The position numbers and the translations under genes were made by a program. This document shows positions 4,890 to 24,690 of a stretch of DNA of 25,225 bases, in pieces; the first letter of the stretch is position 1, and every line of letters starts with the position of its first letter. A model generated the notes under the pieces. The model was not told where the DNA came from and did no database searches. It saw nothing but the letters and a program-made list of their open reading frames with translations. The stretch is from a virus. The stretch covers positions 1 to 25,225 of the IMG/VR virus record IMGVR_UViG_3300046838_000053. One strand, given 5' to 3'.

Positions 4890-5450
4890 CTAGAACATCG
4901 CCCCGGACAAATCGCCGAGGCGCGACACAGCACCGCGGAACGGCTTACCCGTCACGGTGATGAAGCGATCACGTGAGTACGTCTCCACGGACAACCGGCC
5001 GATCGTCTGCTTCCGGCCCGGACCCTCCGGCAGCAGCCCCCACACATGGAGACCGTCACCCGATGGGGAGATCTCCACGTACGTATCCGGGCACGCCGCA
5101 AGGAACTCGGCAGCCGCACGAGTCGGAACACCCACCGGCGACAAGCAATGATCCAAGTCGAAGCAGCCAATGCCATCGCCGAGGACGAAACCCTTCCGGG
5201 TATGAGCTCGCACCCGGGCATACGACGACCACGTTGCCGAATCAGTCGACGACGCCGGCGAACCATCCACCTGGATCGGACGCTTCCGCGGGCCCGGAGT
5301 CCACCGCACCCACCGAGCACGCTCACGCAATGCGGACGGCACCGACACACGATGCGCAGCGACCCGACACTTCGCGGAGCAGAACCGCGGCACACGACCA
5401 GGCTTCAGCAGATCCAGCGGACCACCGCAACGCTCACAGGTTCTCGACAT
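4890..5450 (-). CDS. Stand-alone primase-polymerase (AEP) domain with N-terminal zinc finger
   Basis: Predicted archaeo-eukaryotic-type primase/polymerase. Residues 5-33 form a treble-clef-like zinc finger (C5, C8, C24, C28). The catalytic core shows GFVLGDGIGCFDLDHC at 87-102 with the D98-x-D100 metal pair, ISPSGDGLHVWG at 127-138 with the S-x-H motif, and a terminal VETYSRDRFITVTG segment, all as in the primpol domain of NrS-1-like phage polymerases. It ends after this domain (186 residues), with no helicase. The ATG at 5450 has no Shine-Dalgarno, but TATGCT lies exactly six bases before it, suggesting a leaderless transcript. An upstream in-frame extension to 5642 is low complexity and rejected. 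Confidence 0.8.
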   Translation of the reverse strand: MSRTCERCGGPLDLLKPGRVPRFCSAKCRVAAHRVSVPSALRERARWVRWTPGPRKRPIQVDGSPASSTDSATWSSYARVRAHTRKGFVLGDGIGCFDLDHCLSPVGVPTRAAAEFLAACPDTYVEISPSGDGLHVWGLLPEGPGRKQTIGRLSVETYSRDRFITVTGKPFRGAVSRLGDLSGAMF

Positions 5451-5462
5451 AGGTGAAGCATA
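5451..5462 (-). promoter_or_regulatory. Putative leaderless promoter (-10 TATGCT) of the primpol/terminase block
   Basis: On the minus strand TATGCT (5462-5457) is followed by TCACCT and then the ATG at 5450. The six-base gap puts the expected transcription start on the A of the ATG. The gene has no ribosome binding site, which fits. No convincing -35 is present. Confidence 0.4.
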
Positions 5463-5525
5463 CAGCCTGACGTTACGATAGGCACCGTTTGACCTGCACG
5501 TTTCCGGAGGGTAATTCGCCACCCC

Positions 5526-5540
5526 CTGAGACGGTCTCAG
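5526..5540. repeat. 15-bp perfect palindrome
   Basis: CTGAGAC-G-GTCTCAG has 7-bp arms around one central base, in the noncoding gap upstream of the primpol-terminase genes. It is suitable as a binding site for a dimeric protein (terminase or regulator); the function is unknown. Confidence 0.5.
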
Positions 5541-5747
5541 CCACATCCCAGGGGTCCGATCACCCCACCCCACACCCCAACGGCCGGCAGCAACCACACC
5601 AGCCACCCGCAAGCCCACCCCCAAAACACAGGAGGAGCGCACGCAAGATCGTTAGTGCTATGGGTACCGACAGGGAGATGGATCAGGATCGGGGGTTGCC
5701 CCCCTGGGGTGCAGATTTGAGAGGCCTGACGTCCACGTACACAGGAT

Positions 5748-20391: not shown

Positions 20392-20684
20392 GCGACACCA
20401 CCCTGGATGACACGAAGCGGACGCTTGAACGGCCGCTCCTCGAATGTCAGGGGCGCAGAGCGCAGGAGTCGAACCTTCGCGCCATACGACTCGAGGAGGT
20501 TGGCGCGGTTTACGGCTGATGACCGGGAGGCGTAGAACCTCTGGACGGACGGCCAGATGAACTCGTCCGTCTTGAACTGGTGGAGGTACTCGTCAGTCGG
20601 GTGCCAATCCTTCGGCTCCCAGCCCCGATAGTGAGCGCGCTCGGGGTACTCAACGTCGAGCTTCCAGACGTACGTGGGGCTCAT
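20388..20684 (-). CDS. Unknown basic protein
   Basis: 98 residues, MSPTYVWKLDVEYPERAHYR with aromatic and basic residues, then a helix (SSAVNRANLLESYGAKVRLL) and a basic C-terminus. Start ATG 20684 overlaps the antirepressor stop. Not recognised. Confidence 0.68.
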   Translation of the reverse strand: MSPTYVWKLDVEYPERAHYRGWEPKDWHPTDEYLHQFKTDEFIWPSVQRFYASRSSAVNRANLLESYGAKVRLLRSAPLTFEERPFKRPLRVIQGGVA

Positions 20685-21382
20685 GCCGCACCGCCTTCGA
20701 TGACGAGCTCCCAGATCCATGCCGGGTAGGAGTTGACCTCGCCGTACAGATGATGCGGAACCTTCACCGGCTCGATGCCATTGCGCTTCGCGATCATCGA
20801 CGCCTGACGCCCCATCTTGTTCAGGTGCTGCGTCGACGTGTTCTTGATGCCATTCAGTCGGGCGTACCCGAGGGCGGAGAACCAGTCGTGTCGTCCCTCG
20901 ATCGCGTCGAGGCGTGCCTCAGTCTTGACTGCGAGGGCCTTCGCCTCGTCCGCCGTCCGCTGCGCAGTCTCCAGCTGGTCGATCTGGGCGCGGAGGATAT
21001 CGAACGTCGACAGGCTGGAGGGATTCACCGCGACGCCGGCGGAGAAGTAGGCATCCAGGGCGTCAGCCGCTTCCGACTGGAATGCGACGACCTTCGGGCG
21101 GGCATCTTCACTGACCCGAGACTCATCGATCGTGGCGAGCCACATCGTCATGGTGCGGCGATCGATCATCGTCATCTGGTAGGACTTGCCGTCCGCGCCA
21201 GTTGCGGTGCTCATGACAGCAACTGCCCACGACTTGCTCTGAAGCTTCCGGCGCTGGCTATCGACGTCGATGCCGAGGGCTTCGCACATCGGCTTCAGTG
21301 CGACCATCGGGCGGCCGTCGATCTGAGCGGCGAAGAGCTGGGCATCGGTACCGGGGACGGGGATGGTGGCGAGTGTGCTCAC
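20681..21382 (-). CDS. Antirepressor (P22_AR_N domain)
   Basis: 233 residues. The N-terminal 115 residues match the P22 antirepressor N-domain: IPVPGTDAQLFAAQIDGRPM, VALKPMCEALGIDVDSQRRK and the RTMTMWLATIDESRV block. A helical linker (130-165) leads to a C-terminal domain with LGYARLNGIKNTSTQHLNKM. Antirepressors relieve repression by binding the CI-type repressor; here the likely target is the repressor at 22193-22438. GTG start in a GTGA overlap. Confidence 0.87.
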   Translation of the reverse strand: MSTLATIPVPGTDAQLFAAQIDGRPMVALKPMCEALGIDVDSQRRKLQSKSWAVAVMSTATGADGKSYQMTMIDRRTMTMWLATIDESRVSEDARPKVVAFQSEAADALDAYFSAGVAVNPSSLSTFDILRAQIDQLETAQRTADEAKALAVKTEARLDAIEGRHDWFSALGYARLNGIKNTSTQHLNKMGRQASMIAKRNGIEPVKVPHHLYGEVNSYPAWIWELVIEGGAA

Positions 21383-21531
21383 TTGGTCACCGCCGTTGCG
21401 ACGAACTTGATGGCGAACGCGGCAGCGAGAACCAGAGCCAGGGAGGCAGTGTCGAACGCGTCGACAACCATGCCGGGGATAGAGGGAAGGTGAGGCGCCC
21501 GTTGTTGATCGGGTGCTGTATTGTCAAGCAT
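21379..21531 (-). CDS. Small single-pass membrane protein
   Basis: 50 residues starting MLDNTAPDQQRAPHLPSIPG, then one transmembrane helix (TASLALVLAAAFAIKFVATA). AAGGA lies 5 bases before ATG 21531, hence the choice; ATG 21606 in the same frame, coupled by ATGA to the upstream frame, would add 25 residues (MKKPPAAVTTEGF...) encoded by the duplicated hairpin element. Function unknown. Confidence 0.65.
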   Translation of the reverse strand: MLDNTAPDQQRAPHLPSIPGMVVDAFDTASLALVLAAAFAIKFVATAVTK

Positions 21532-21535
21532 TGTG

Positions 21536-21603
21536 TTCCTTCGTGGTAGTTGGGACCGTTTGCAGAGGAAGCCCTCGGTTGTTACGGCAGCCGGGGGTTT
21601 TTT
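21536..21603. repeat. Tandem element copy 1 (box plus terminator-like hairpin)
   Basis: Begins with the 21-base box at 21536-21556 and ends with hairpin and T6. Copy 2 is 21668-21728; the boxes match at 19 of 21 positions, and stem and tail are likewise related. On the minus strand this copy supplies the AAGGA ribosome binding site of the gene starting at 21531. Confidence 0.7.
21571..21603 (+). terminator. Plus-strand intrinsic terminator 1
   Basis: Plus RNA: CCCUCGGUUG-UUACGG-CAGCCGGGGG followed by six U. Ten pairs with two U-G wobbles that become mismatches on minus, so it works only against rightward transcription, opposite to the local genes. Confidence 0.7.
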
Positions 21604-21731
21604 CATGCGGCGAGCGAGTGGCGAACTGGATAGATGTCCAGGTCTGCGCTACGCTTGGCCTTGCTCGTTCCTTCGTGGAGGTTGGGACGAAGATGGCCCT
21701 CAGTTGTTTCTTCAGCTGGGGGCTTTCTCAT
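21603..21731 (-). CDS. 42-residue frame made of the duplicated element (tentative)
   Basis: Begins MRKPPAEETTEGHL, like the MKKPPAAVTTEGFL frame at the next copy. ATGA overlaps join it to the 46-residue gene before and the frame after. It may be a true coupled microprotein or simply the coding shadow of the duplicated terminator element; unlike copy 1, no ATG follows its AAGGA. Confidence 0.35.
   Translation of the reverse strand: MRKPPAEETTEGHLRPNLHEGTSKAKRSADLDIYPVRHSLAA
21668..21728. repeat. Tandem element copy 2
   Basis: Second copy of the box (21668-21688) and hairpin; 132 bp to the right of copy 1. The spacer between box and hairpin is about 8 bases shorter than in copy 1. Confidence 0.65.
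21696..21728 (+). terminator. Plus-strand intrinsic terminator 2
   Basis: GCCCUCAGUUG-UUUCUU-CAGCUGGGGGC then UUUCU. Same fold as terminator 1; an A-U pair here replaces a G-C pair there, a compensatory change supporting a selected RNA stem. Confidence 0.65.
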
Positions 21732-21868
21732 GCCGCGGCACGTTCATCAGATGCGGCCTCGGAAATCAGTGGCCGGATGAGATCGAGTTGCCGTACGCTG
21801 AGCGGCCTACTGCGGCTCATTGTTTCTTCAAGCCAGGCCTGCATTGCCGGCGTCCACTCGGCGCTCAT
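21728..21868 (-). CDS. Small helical protein of the immunity region
   Basis: 46 residues: MSAEWTPAMQAWLEETMSRS then RPLSVRQLDLIRPLISEAAS. The start is an ATGA overlap with the Cro-like stop, so the two are translated together. Helical; possibly a partner of Cro. Not recognised. Confidence 0.68.
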   Translation of the reverse strand: MSAEWTPAMQAWLEETMSRSRPLSVRQLDLIRPLISEAASDERAAA

Positions 21869-22095
21869 TCGGTCGGATCCGCAGAGGGGGAGGGGAGGAG
21901 ATCTCGTGCGTCTATCCCGAGATGTTGAGCAATCTTGATCAGGTCTGAGCCGGTGAAGCTGGCATGACCGGTAGCACGTCGGTAGAAGGTGGTGCGGGGC
22001 AATCCGATTGCTTGCGCCACCTTGTTTTCCGACGTGCCATGTTGAGTGATTGCGCGCTTCACCGCCGCGCCGATGTCGAGGTTGGTTTGTTCCAT
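21865..22095 (-). CDS. Cro-like HTH regulator
   Basis: 76 residues with an XRE-type HTH: SENKVAQAIGLPRTTFYRRA (about 22-41) and a following helix (GSDLIKIAQHLGIDARDLLP). First gene of the leftward lytic operon and divergent from the repressor, the expected place for Cro. No Shine-Dalgarno; the ATG begins six bases after -10 TACGAT and lies inside operator O1, so translation is probably leaderless and repression blocks the start itself. Confidence 0.82.
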   Translation of the reverse strand: MEQTNLDIGAAVKRAITQHGTSENKVAQAIGLPRTTFYRRATGHASFTGSDLIKIAQHLGIDARDLLPSPSADPTE

Positions 22096-22101
22096 GTGGA
22101 A
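22090..22101. promoter_or_regulatory. Operator O1 over the cro start codon
   Basis: TTCCATGTGGAA, palindromic (TTCC-N4-GGAA). On minus it reads TTCCACATGGAA and contains the ATG of the Cro-like gene. Its centre is 20 bp, two helical turns, from that of O2. Confidence 0.65.
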
Positions 22102-22130
22102 ATCGTACTTTCCGTATGGAACAAAAGCAA
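22102..22130 (-). promoter_or_regulatory. Leftward lytic promoter (cro)
   Basis: Minus strand -35 TTGCTT (22130-22125), 17-base spacer, -10 TACGAT (22107-22102). The transcription start should fall on the A of the cro ATG at 22095. O2 lies in the spacer and O1 at the start. Confidence 0.6.
22110..22121. promoter_or_regulatory. Operator O2
   Basis: TTCCGTATGGAA, followed by CA as in the consensus TTCC-N4-GGAACA. It sits between -35 and -10 of the leftward promoter, so binding should block RNA polymerase. Confidence 0.65.
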
Positions 22131-22157
22131 GTGATGTGAATTACAAGACTGTCGTTC

Positions 22158-22186
22158 TTGGAGTTCCCCGCTATGGGAGGTATGGT
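22158..22186 (+). promoter_or_regulatory. Repressor promoter
   Basis: -35 TTGGAG (22158-22163), 17-base spacer, -10 TATGGT (22181-22186), then six bases to ATG 22193. A GGGAGG at 22175-22180 is too far (12 bases) for a normal ribosome binding site, so leaderless expression is likely. Confidence 0.55.
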
Positions 22187-22198
22187 TTCCGTATGGAC
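22187..22198. promoter_or_regulatory. Operator O3 over the repressor start codon
   Basis: TTCCGTATGGAC; differs from O2 only in the last base. It contains the repressor ATG, giving a simple autoregulatory site. Confidence 0.6.
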
Positions 22199-22438
22199 AC
22201 AGAGAGTGCAGATCGGATCACGCAGGCCATCGCTGCGGAGTTACGCGCAGCACGTGGCCGCAAAGACATCACGCGAGACGAGCTGGCGGATCGCTCCGGC
22301 GTCAGCCGCTCAAGCGTATGGAGATACGAGAAAGGGGAACGCGAGGTCAAAGTGATTGACCTATACGCGCTGTGCGAGGTGCTGGGCGTATCGCCCAGCA
22401 CCATCCTGCAGGCAGCTCAGGACTCCCTAGGAAACTAG
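22193..22438 (+). CDS. Immunity repressor (short XRE/HTH protein)
   Basis: 81 residues. HTH at about 27-47 (TRDELADRSGVSRSSVWRYE) with a C-terminal helix pair (VIDLYALCEVLGVSPSTILQ). There is no separate C-terminal dimerisation or cleavage domain, so it is not a LexA-like SOS-cleavable repressor; an encoded antirepressor offers another route to induction. The only rightward gene of the switch. Start ATG 22193 follows -10 TATGGT by six bases and lies in O3. Confidence 0.82.
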   Translation: MDTESADRITQAIAAELRAARGRKDITRDELADRSGVSRSSVWRYEKGEREVKVIDLYALCEVLGVSPSTILQAAQDSLGN

Positions 22439-22600
22439 GGAGACACTGATGTCGAGCAACGTAGTAACAGGGAGGTCCAGGCCGAGAGCGGCCTGGACCA
22501 TTTGCGTTGCAGTCAGAGATTGAAAGAACTCCGGAAGTTCCGCGAGAGGAACGTGGGGAGGCTTGTCGACTTCACTGCTCATGTGGAGGTTGTAAGGCAT
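22427..22600 (-). CDS. Small protein convergent with the repressor (tentative)
   Basis: 57 residues (MPYNLHMSSEVDKPPHVPLA, then ELPEFFQSLTATQMVQAALG and a hydrophobic end). It overlaps the last 12 bases of the repressor gene. Start ATG 22600 or ATG 22582. Protein-like composition, but no strong ribosome binding site, and a 10-bp hairpin lies in its coding part. Confidence 0.42.
   Translation of the reverse strand: MPYNLHMSSEVDKPPHVPLAELPEFFQSLTATQMVQAALGLDLPVTTLLDISVSLVS
22474..22499 (+). terminator. Terminator of the repressor gene
   Basis: GGTCCAGGCC-GAGAGC-GGCCTGGACC, a perfect 10-bp stem 35 bases after the repressor stop, followed by ATTTG. Short U-tract only. It could also act leftward. 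Confidence 0.6.
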
Positions 22601-22715
22601 GGACGGCTCTCGCTTCTTGGTTGATGGCTTAACTAACCGTTAGCAAACGGTTAAATCTGCTCGAGCAAACCGAACGTTACCTCTTACTTTTGAGTAGTGT
22701 TGGTACACAACGTGA
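22601..22715. other. AT-rich gap downstream of integrase; candidate attP region
   Basis: Large serine integrases usually have attP next to their gene. This gap is markedly richer in A/T than its surroundings, contains a 20-base inverted repeat (22634-22653) and the sequence GTGTTGGTACACAAC (22697-22711), similar in style to arms of known serine attP sites. The exact crossover dinucleotide cannot be assigned. Confidence 0.35.
22634..22653. repeat. Inverted repeat downstream of integrase
   Basis: TAACCGTT-AGCA-AACGGTTA, perfect 8-bp arms. No U-tract, so a protein site or part of attP is as likely as a terminator. Confidence 0.55.
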
Positions 22716-24071
22716 TTAAATCCACTCAAGTTTCACAAACTCGGGACGAAAGACCCTACCGCGAGGGGCGGGCAGTATGGTCACACGGGCGAGAGCACGG
22801 ATAACCGTCCGCCGGTTGGCTACCGACCAGCGTTCCCAAGTGGCTCGTGCGTTTCCGCCGAGCATCTCCACCACGAGCGGATTGACGACAGCTTGAGCAC
22901 GCCGCTCCGCATCGCGGATCTTCGGCAACATGCGCGCCTCGATACGCGCCAGCGATGCGGCAGTCAGCTCCCCATCGGCGTACTTGTCGGCAGCCTCATC
23001 GAGTCGCGCCTGGAGTTCACGGGCCTCCTTGATCGCTGACCCGACGCCCGGGTCCGCCAACTCGTCGATGCTCGACGCGGTCTCCAGCCGTGCGATCACA
23101 GCCTCCTCGACCAACTTGTCGACATACTTGGTGCGCCGGCCGACATGCCGCTTCGGCGAGGTGCAGGTATAGGAGTCGTAGCCGCTGTTCTTCAGCCGCT
23201 CGACCCGAGCTCCGCACACACCGCACTTCGCAATCCCGCTGAGGAGATGCACCGGGGCCACGCCACGCTGCGTCCGCCGATTCGGGTCCGACAGGATCGC
23301 GACGATCGTCTGGTGATCCTCGAGCGAGATCAACGGTTCCCACTGACCCTGAGTGATGGTGCCGTGATGCGAGCGGAGTCCGGCGTACGTCGGCCGCTGC
23401 AACATCAGACCCAAGCGCTGACCGACCCACTCCTTCGACGTCCCCGGAGTCGGCACCATCCTCGCATTGAGATCCTGGGCGATCGACCACGGGGTCTCGC
23501 CGGCAAGCACACGCCGAGCAGCATCCTGGATGACGAGTGATTCCTCCTCGTCGGGGACGCGCTTCATGGCGCCGGTGATCTTGTCGTACTCAGCCCGATA
23601 TCCGTAGACGATCTTCCCGTGGGGGCGGCCCTCGAAAGCGGCGGCGCGGAAGTCGCGCAACACTCGCTCGTGGGTCTTGTCGGATTCATGCTCAGAGAGG
23701 AGAGCGTGTAGGCCGGTGGTGAATCGGCCGTCGCTGGTGTTCAGGTCGTAGACGCTGCCACTGTATGACCATTTGACGCCGCGCTCTGCGCAGAGGTCGC
23801 GGAGTTCGGCGTAGACCTTCAGGTCGCGCTGCGCTCGGGATGCCTCCCAGGTAACGAGGACCATGCCAGGTTCGAGGACATCGCGGAGGCGTCGGTACTC
23901 GGGGCGGTCCTTCTTTGAGTGGCGTGACGCGCCCTTGTCGTTGTCCTGGAGGACGTCGACTATCTCCCACCCGTTGCGTTCGCAGGCGGCTCGGCACTCC
24001 TGTTCCTGCTGGTCAACTGACCTTCCTTCGCGGAGGTCACTGGACACTCGGGTGTAGATGATTGCCCTCAT
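22716..24071 (-). CDS. Large serine integrase
   Basis: 451 residues. N-terminal resolvase domain with YTRVSS (catalytic Ser10) and SVDQQEQECRAACERNGWEI; recombinase domain (about 150-260, GKIVYGYRAEYDKITGAMKR); zinc ribbon CGVCGARVERLKNSGYDSYTC near 284-304; C-terminal coiled coil (ELQARLDEAADKYADGELTA). Catalyses attP x attB integration; no excision factor was identified with confidence. There is no Shine-Dalgarno; -10 TAAAAT lies six bases before the ATG. Confidence 0.95.
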   Translation of the reverse strand: MRAIIYTRVSSDLREGRSVDQQEQECRAACERNGWEIVDVLQDNDKGASRHSKKDRPEYRRLRDVLEPGMVLVTWEASRAQRDLKVYAELRDLCAERGVKWSYSGSVYDLNTSDGRFTTGLHALLSEHESDKTHERVLRDFRAAAFEGRPHGKIVYGYRAEYDKITGAMKRVPDEEESLVIQDAARRVLAGETPWSIAQDLNARMVPTPGTSKEWVGQRLGLMLQRPTYAGLRSHHGTITQGQWEPLISLEDHQTIVAILSDPNRRTQRGVAPVHLLSGIAKCGVCGARVERLKNSGYDSYTCTSPKRHVGRRTKYVDKLVEEAVIARLETASSIDELADPGVGSAIKEARELQARLDEAADKYADGELTAASLARIEARMLPKIRDAERRAQAVVNPLVVEMLGGNARATWERWSVANRRTVIRALARVTILPAPRGRVFRPEFVKLEWI

Positions 24072-24083
24072 GTGGAAATTTTA
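24069..24083 (-). promoter_or_regulatory. Leaderless integrase promoter with operator half-site
   Basis: Minus strand TAAAAT-TTCCAC-ATG. The 11 bases ATTTCCACATG are identical to those at the cro start, so the left half of the operator (TTCC) is present while the right half (GGAA) is replaced by AGGG. No good -35 is seen. Confidence 0.5.
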
Positions 24084-24094
24084 TCACTGGGGAC

Positions 24095-24123
24095 TTGCAC
24101 ACCTGACGCCGCTTATGTAGCGT
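24095..24123 (+). promoter_or_regulatory. Rightward promoter upstream of the secreted-protein gene
   Basis: TTGCAC (24095-24100), 17-base spacer, TAGCGT (24118-24123). The predicted start near 24130 abuts operator O4. The leader to the gene at 24283 is about 150 bases and appears noncoding. Confidence 0.5.
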
Positions 24124-24134
24124 TCTCCCCAGTG

Positions 24135-24146
24135 TTCCAAACGGAA
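24135..24146. promoter_or_regulatory. Operator O4
   Basis: TTCCAAACGGAA in the context GTTCC-N4-GGAACA, the best palindrome of the set. It lies just downstream of the rightward promoter, in the position of a roadblock or initiation block. Confidence 0.6.
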
Positions 24147-24282
24147 CAACATCGAGACCTCGGGGAGTCTAGCAATGACCAGTCCGAATACCGCCCAAGT
24201 CGCACAGCCCCGATGCAGAGGGCAACCGGCAAACGGTGATCACCCGCCGACCCGCTCGCCCACCTGCTCGGAAGGCAACACC

Positions 24283-24690
24283 ATGATCCGCACCATCGTC
24301 ACCGCCATCGCAGCATCCGCCCTCGTCCTCCTCGGAACCGGCGCAGCACAGGCAGACCCCATCGCCGCCCAGTGCGCCCGCGCCACCATCCCCACCGCCC
24401 TCTGCAACGGCACCGGAGGAACCGCACCCACCAACGACGGCAACGGCCAGTACGTCAAAGCGCAGCCCGCCGAGAAGTACCTGTCCGGATCCACCCCCAC
24501 CGTCATCGGCTACCAGCCCGTGCTGAACACGGACGGCACCCCCAAGATCGGCGACGACGGCAAACCCGTAATGGACCCCATCATGGGACAGACCCCCGTC
24601 TACAGCACCAAGACTGCGGATGAGGATGGGAAGCCTGCCCGCTCCGGCGACGGCACCGCAGTCGACTACTCCGGCTACCAGTACAAGTAG
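24283..24690 (+). CDS. Secreted protein of unknown function
   Basis: 135 residues. A clear Sec signal peptide (MIRTIVTAIAASALVLLGTG, cleavage likely after AAQA near residue 24) is followed by a Gly/Thr/Pro-rich mature part with two Cys (C30, C40) and degenerate short Asp-Gly repeats (NTDGTPKIGDDGKPV, DEDGKPARSGDG). GGAAGG lies 7 bases before ATG 24283; the in-frame ATG at 24175 would hide the signal peptide. It may be a cell-surface or lysogenic-conversion protein; the evidence is only secretion and promoter position. Confidence 0.75.
   Translation: MIRTIVTAIAASALVLLGTGAAQADPIAAQCARATIPTALCNGTGGTAPTNDGNGQYVKAQPAEKYLSGSTPTVIGYQPVLNTDGTPKIGDDGKPVMDPIMGQTPVYSTKTADEDGKPARSGDGTAVDYSGYQYK

Follow-up and report, generated by a model that had tools for sequence, protein, structure and literature searches.

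The window analysed here, a linear IMG/VR record of 25,225 bp, carries a divergent pair of regulatory genes, a repressor-like gene (rep) and a cro-like gene, at whose starts a -10 box, an operator-like palindrome and the ATG are fused. From the sequence we consider it quite probable that this is a lysis-lysogeny switch with leaderless rep and cro, in which regulator dimers on the +1/start codon and at about -20 would block transcription. The terminase and scattered DNA matches relate the record to phages of Mycobacterium, Gordonia and other actinobacteria.

Genes of the divergent locus

The cro-like gene (21865..22095, minus strand) encodes a 76-aa protein with an XRE-type helix-turn-helix (HTH) domain (PF01381, E=3e-6; PHROG 4583, transcriptional repressor, E=5e-15). 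The immunity-repressor-like gene rep (22193..22438, plus strand) encodes 81 aa (PF01381, E=4e-14), and both products consist of a single XRE/HTH_3 domain according to Pfam as well as PHROG 4583 and others. In tblastn searches the 81-aa protein gave matches to a hypothetical protein of Rhodococcus ReT1v-1 and to products annotated as immunity repressors in Sparky and Anatole. The divergent orientation of the two HTH genes and the palindromes between them are those of a Cro/CI-type switch. The pair is embedded in a lysogeny module: a serine integrase gene of 451 aa lies beyond rep (22716..24071, minus strand; PF00239 and PF07508; PHROG 95, E=2e-86), and a P22_AR_N antirepressor gene lies downstream of cro (20681..21382, minus strand; PF10547, E=1e-35). 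The antirepressor is probably the inducer of the switch. Antirepressor genes downstream of cro are also present in ReT1v-1, Anatole and B22.

Promoters and operator-like palindromes

On the minus strand, cro is preceded by the layout TTGCTT-17 bp-TACGAT-TTCCAC-ATG, with the -35 box at 22125..22130, the -10 box at 22102..22107 and the ATG at 22095. The plus-strand layout of rep is TTGGAG-17 bp-TATGGT-TTCCGT-ATG, with the boxes at 22158..22163 and 22181..22186 and the ATG at 22193. The original prediction had placed a -10 hexamer exactly six bases before each ATG, and its letters and coordinates proved correct on re-reading of the sequence; the matching -35 boxes at 17-bp spacing of Pcro and Prep go beyond what it had listed. 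A strict sigma-70 consensus scan of positions 21500-22800 gave no match, Pcro and Prep included, so that the promoter calls rest on the TANNNT/TTG geometry and its conservation and not on consensus strength. Among the 46 genes taken for the window, a TANNNT at 6-7 nt from the start codon is seen in three only, namely cro, rep and int (6 nt in each case). It had also been claimed that neither gene has a usable Shine-Dalgarno (SD) sequence. This holds for cro, but not strictly for rep, where GGGAGG is found at 22175-22180, 12 nt upstream of the ATG.

Three candidate operators are recognized between the two genes. O1 (TTCCATGTGGAA, 22090..22101) and O2 (TTCCGTATGGAA, 22110..22121) agree with TTCC-N4-GGAA at 8/8 arm positions, the dyad axis of O1 falling between -1 and +1 of cro and O2 lying in the Pcro spacer, 20 bp away centre to centre. 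Both sites are contained within a larger 17-bp inverted repeat (22086-22102/22109-22125). O3 (TTCCGTATGGAC, 22187..22198) is a near copy with 7/8 arm positions, and its dyad axis lies between -1 and +1 of rep. Thus, both start codons do stand inside palindromes as proposed, and the postulated third site at 22110-22121 is a perfect one. The 12-mer TTTCCGTATGGA at 22109 (O2) is repeated identically, in 12/12 bases, at 22186, that is in O3 at the rep start. In the Prep spacer, a weak fourth site (CCCGCTATGGGA, 22167..22178) may exist at a distance of 20 bp on the upstream side of O3; only its right half is operator-like, and we assign it low confidence.

In the 25,225 bp of the record the perfect TTCC-N4-GGAA motif occurs four times, compared with 0.13 copies expected from Markov-resampled sequence. 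The related motif TTTCC[A/G][C/T]ATG is likewise present in four copies, located at the cro start, in O2, at the rep start and at the integrase start, three of the four hence being at gene starts. One perfect TTCC-N4-GGAA lies within the antirepressor gene (21071-21082) and may be due to chance. Immunity by dispersed sites of the L5/Bxb1 stoperator type was considered and rejected, as the sites are too few: the record, which may be an incomplete genome, holds four perfect symmetric sites, two of them in the switch, and Sparky holds three, all in the switch.

Comparison with related loci

Relatives were collected through the rep protein, which led to Rhodococcus ReT1v-1, Mycobacterium phage Sparky and Propionibacterium phages Anatole and B22, as well as to viral contigs and to bacterial contigs from Microbacterium, Cryobacterium, Nocardioides and others. 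A DNA-level search of phages with the switch sequence returned no match, and the family was reached through the protein; with Cro as query, no relative was obtained from the viral contigs. By HMM, 36 divergent rep/cro pairs were identified, and as start we took whichever in-frame ATG came closest to position 1 of the HMM, regardless of promoters. Redundancy was removed at 70% identity over 120 bp, which left 27 loci. Two loci with an implausible repressor start or unclear ORFs (L030, L038) were left out of the statistics, and a further one (L010) is not a usable switch locus. The 27 loci are mutually related, and the resampling figures given below describe effect size, not independent trials.

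A TANNNT hexamer stands 6-7 nt before the ATG of 20/27 cro and 22/27 rep genes and is rare at other spacings. Upstream of cro, a TTG starts at a distance of 35-37 nt from the ATG in 25 of the 27 loci, and SD-like 4-mers were detected at one cro and two rep genes only. At the sequence level, this spacing together with the near absence of SD sequences is a leaderless promoter geometry. The M. abscessus prophage GD08-3, which does not belong to the 27 loci, has spacers of 6 and 7 and dyads of 5 and 6. A Rothia homologue shows the spacing with weak dyads. In a remote homologue from Bacillus, AGGAGG is present as ribosome site and the leaderless geometry is absent. Taken together, the 27 loci and the M. 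abscessus prophage strongly support two points of the original prediction, the leaderless geometry at both genes and the operator-like sites centred on both start codons. Leaderless translation is described as robust in mycobacteria (PMC4633059).

The annotated cro starts of Sparky and Anatole (L007:2384 and L008:2379) lie upstream of the leaderless ATG. They are probably wrong, since the leaderless ATGs (MEQRVNQ... and MTTKTVG...) fit family and promoter better. Read from this ATG, the Sparky Cro has the same N-terminus, MEQ, as the cro-like protein of the window.

Dyad symmetry was scored over nine pairs at each axis from -45 to +15, with 3473 other ATGs of the same loci as control. For cro, the mean over the 27 loci reaches its maximum at axis 0, which separates -1 from the A of the ATG, with 5.74 of 9 pairs compared with 2.14 at control ATGs, and a second peak of 4.07 pairs is found at -21. 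For rep, the peak at axis 0 amounts to 3.81 pairs (control 2.14). When the three pairs involving the ATG itself are removed, the values are 3.78 versus 1.63 for cro (0/5000 resamples) and 2.48 versus 1.64 for rep (1/5000), again to be taken as effect sizes. The cro -20/-21 site is more similar to the start site with which it shares a locus (8.56) than to those of other loci (7.00; 0/5000). The operators therefore vary between phages but are consistent inside each one, as expected of sites for specific proteins.

For rep the picture is less uniform. Its start site is more similar to the cro start site (8.19) than other ATGs are (5.83), but it is no closer to the cro site of its own locus than to those of other loci at the 5% level (295/5000). 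At the rep -20/-21 position, family-wide similarity is only slightly raised, and a cro-like operator pair at the rep promoter was not retained. In Sparky (63,334 bp) and two relatives (G001, G002), TCCRYATGGA occurs three times each, at the starts of cro and rep and 21 bp upstream of the former, and nowhere else in these genomes. The proposal that one protein could control both promoters hence remains plausible: the same core is found at both genes and at no other place in Sparky and the two relatives, while the family-wide relation is weaker. Covariation between operators and recognition helices gave r ~0.25 for rep and Cro alike, and partial tests did not separate the two convincingly. In one Cro group Thr3 is invariant, and its ACC codon is the operator half-site (GGTnnnCATATGnnnACC).

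Proposed mechanism and alternative explanations

In the switch that we propose, rep and cro would each be transcribed from the A of the ATG as +1 and translated as leaderless mRNAs. At Pcro, two dimers of a regulator, the repressor and/or Cro, would occupy sites separated by 20 bp, or two helical turns, and thus lie on the same face of the DNA, one on the spacer (O2) and one on the +1/start codon (O1). With the -10 box enclosed between them, RNA polymerase would be kept out. O3 on the +1 of rep would serve autoregulation and/or repression of rep by Cro. By analogy with lambda, the 81-aa repressor would silence Pcro in the lysogen, Cro would turn rep down during lytic growth, and the antirepressor encoded downstream of cro would inactivate the repressor; by the same analogy, preferential binding to the cro promoter would be expected of the repressor, and to the rep promoter of Cro. 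An RNA that begins with the A of the ATG contains no more than the right half-site, so that in this case the symmetry would have to be read on the DNA and act against transcription initiation. The original prediction had suggested that one protein could mask both start codons, and this part has to be replaced. As the right half of the operator is coding, it also fixes codons 1-3 of each regulator.

Two alternatives start from longer transcripts. The rep mRNA, and possibly the cro mRNA, may begin further upstream, rep then using GGGAGG, and the -10-like hexamers would be coincidental or minor. The presence of this motif and the negative sigma-70 scan speak for such leadered mRNAs. Against them stand the scarcity of SD-like 4-mers in the family and the sharp peak of TANNNT at 6-7 nt from the ATG; in addition, 12 nt is long for SD spacing. 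Moreover, the Bacillus homologue, with its AGGAGG and no leaderless geometry, shows that the method separates both types, and we judge leadered transcripts to be unlikely. An even longer shot is regulation at the RNA level, in which the ATG palindrome of a leadered mRNA would fold into a hairpin and hide the start codon from ribosomes. The ATG indeed lies within a perfect inverted repeat, but the left arm is missing from the RNA if transcription starts at the ATG, and the matched site 20-21 bp upstream, in the promoter spacer, would make no sense for an RNA structure. We regard this explanation as very improbable.

A more serious competitor, albeit one we still doubt, restricts the real operators to the cro promoter (O1 and O2). 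The site at the rep start would then mainly reflect a sequence preference around leaderless starts and N-terminal codons, and rep would not be directly autoregulated. The weaker family-wide dyad at rep and its lack of clear locus specificity are in line with this, as is the finding that Prep of phage BPs is not regulated by the repressor (PMC4557955). However, the rep site of the window is identical to O2 over the 12-mer, the corresponding site is one of only three genome-wide copies in Sparky and the two relatives, and the rep dyad exceeds that of all other ATGs. We thus prefer the switch with start-codon operators at both genes.

Integrase start and candidate attachment site

A third leaderless-like start was detected at the integrase gene (24069..24083, minus strand), composed of the -10 box TAAAAT, TTCCAC and ATG. 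It has TTTCCACATG in common with the cro start, and the left half of the operator, TTTCCAC, is identical. The integrase may be co-regulated with the rep/cro switch, but since its start carries the left half-site only, we put joint control forward as a hypothesis.

Directly upstream of the integrase -10 box, a 50-bp stretch (24085-24134) is bounded by perfect 9-bp terminal inverted repeats (CACTGGGGA...TCCCCAGTG) and looks like the attP of the serine integrase. In BPs-type immunity, attP is located inside the repressor gene; here, this best candidate for an attP-like inverted repeat adjoins the integrase gene and lies outside rep. The candidate attP abuts a 16-bp palindrome (TGTTCCAAACGGAACA, 24133..24148) with the same arms as O1 and O2, which could be a further operator near the integrase or a part of the att region. 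Just upstream of this palindrome, TTGCAC-17-TAGCGT is present on the plus strand.

Relation to known systems

The ingredients of the proposed switch are known singly: leaderless cI and cro, operators at start sites and tandem C-boxes. In lambda, cro is leadered and the operators are not centred on the AUG. Leaderless repressor mRNAs in divergent switches are represented by lambda cI transcribed from PRM and by PaaR2 of an O157 prophage; unlike in the window, where both genes show the geometry, leaderless expression is described there for the repressor gene alone, to the extent that the source could be consulted (PMC8630535). Leaderless mRNAs on both sides are known from the enterobacterial telomere phage PY54, in which the transcripts of the divergent cI and cro genes start at the AUG according to RACE (PMC4488713). 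PY54 thus resembles the window, where leaderless expression is seen as geometry, in having divergent repressor and Cro genes of this kind. In contrast, its Cro binds one 16-bp site beside cI, the cro promoter is far away, and the available portion of that report does not describe an operator centred on both start codons (PMC4488713). The phrase 'very compact switch' used in the original prediction is therefore fair, but leaderless cI and cro as such are not new.

Among actinophages, BPs can be compared by its published description. Like the window, it has divergent promoters, Prep and PR, with an operator in the -35/-10 spacer of PR and a partial operator, ORep, overlapping the Prep start site, as well as paired half sites and a 12-bp palindrome, there with a CATATG core (PMC4557955). 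The differences concern the repressor, which has 103/136 aa and is apparently a tetramer, the integration-dependent immunity and the ORep match, which is a half motif; a leaderless cro or dyads centred on start codons were not found stated (PMC4557955). The closest solved structures to the rep profile are C.BclI and C.AhdI. Such restriction-modification controllers, exemplified by the Csp231I C-protein operon with its leaderless mRNA and tandem C-boxes, share with the window a small XRE regulator and tandem palindromic operators at its own promoter (PMC4824078). Unlike the window, C-protein operons comprise a single autoregulated gene with activation and repression, the C-box lies upstream in the promoter, and there is no divergent phage switch. 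Further counterparts are Sparky, Anatole and B22, which have a homologous rep/cro pair and, by sequence, the same fusion of -10 box, operator and ATG, but other operator sequences and a different neighbouring integrase (tyrosine-type in Sparky).

What appears to be new is a conserved fixed geometry with the dyad on the first coding base and a second site at a distance of two helical turns on the upstream side, the two enclosing the -10 box. A search of the open literature, which does not cover most subscription journals, brought up no account of a switch with an operator centred on each of its two start codons. Roughly thirty related phages and prophages share the geometry, among them phages of Mycobacterium, Rhodococcus, Propionibacterium, Microbacterium and other Actinomycetota. 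We lean slightly towards the view that such actinophage switches form a widespread class. Operator, transcription start and start codon would then be one element at both divergent genes, and here at the integrase too, with the axis exactly between -1 and +1, and operator specificity and the first codons (e.g. Thr3) would co-evolve. If true, this would provide a simple rule for finding operators in actinophages and for amending the start codons of their repressors and Cro proteins; several of these are apparently mis-annotated. It would also be a testable overlapping constraint: a new immunity specificity should require changed N-terminal codons in both regulators.

Further observations in the window

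A strong 11-bp GC-rich hairpin just past rep (22474-22499) is probably the terminator of the repressor transcript. It lies within or beside a 57-aa ORF on the minus strand (22427-22600) without family match. Between this ORF and the integrase gene, an inverted repeat (TAACCGTT-agca-AACGGTTA, 22634-22653) may represent a terminator or another site. On the other side of the integrase, an ORF on the plus strand (24175-24690) with a likely signal peptide (MIRTIVTAIAASALVLLGTGAAQADP) and no NCBIfam match is the first of a small group of plus-strand genes. Another leaderless-like start, TATGCT-TCACCT-ATG, was noticed at 5450 (minus strand) as an alternative start within ORF 4890-5642, giving a 186-aa protein (MSRTCERCGG...).
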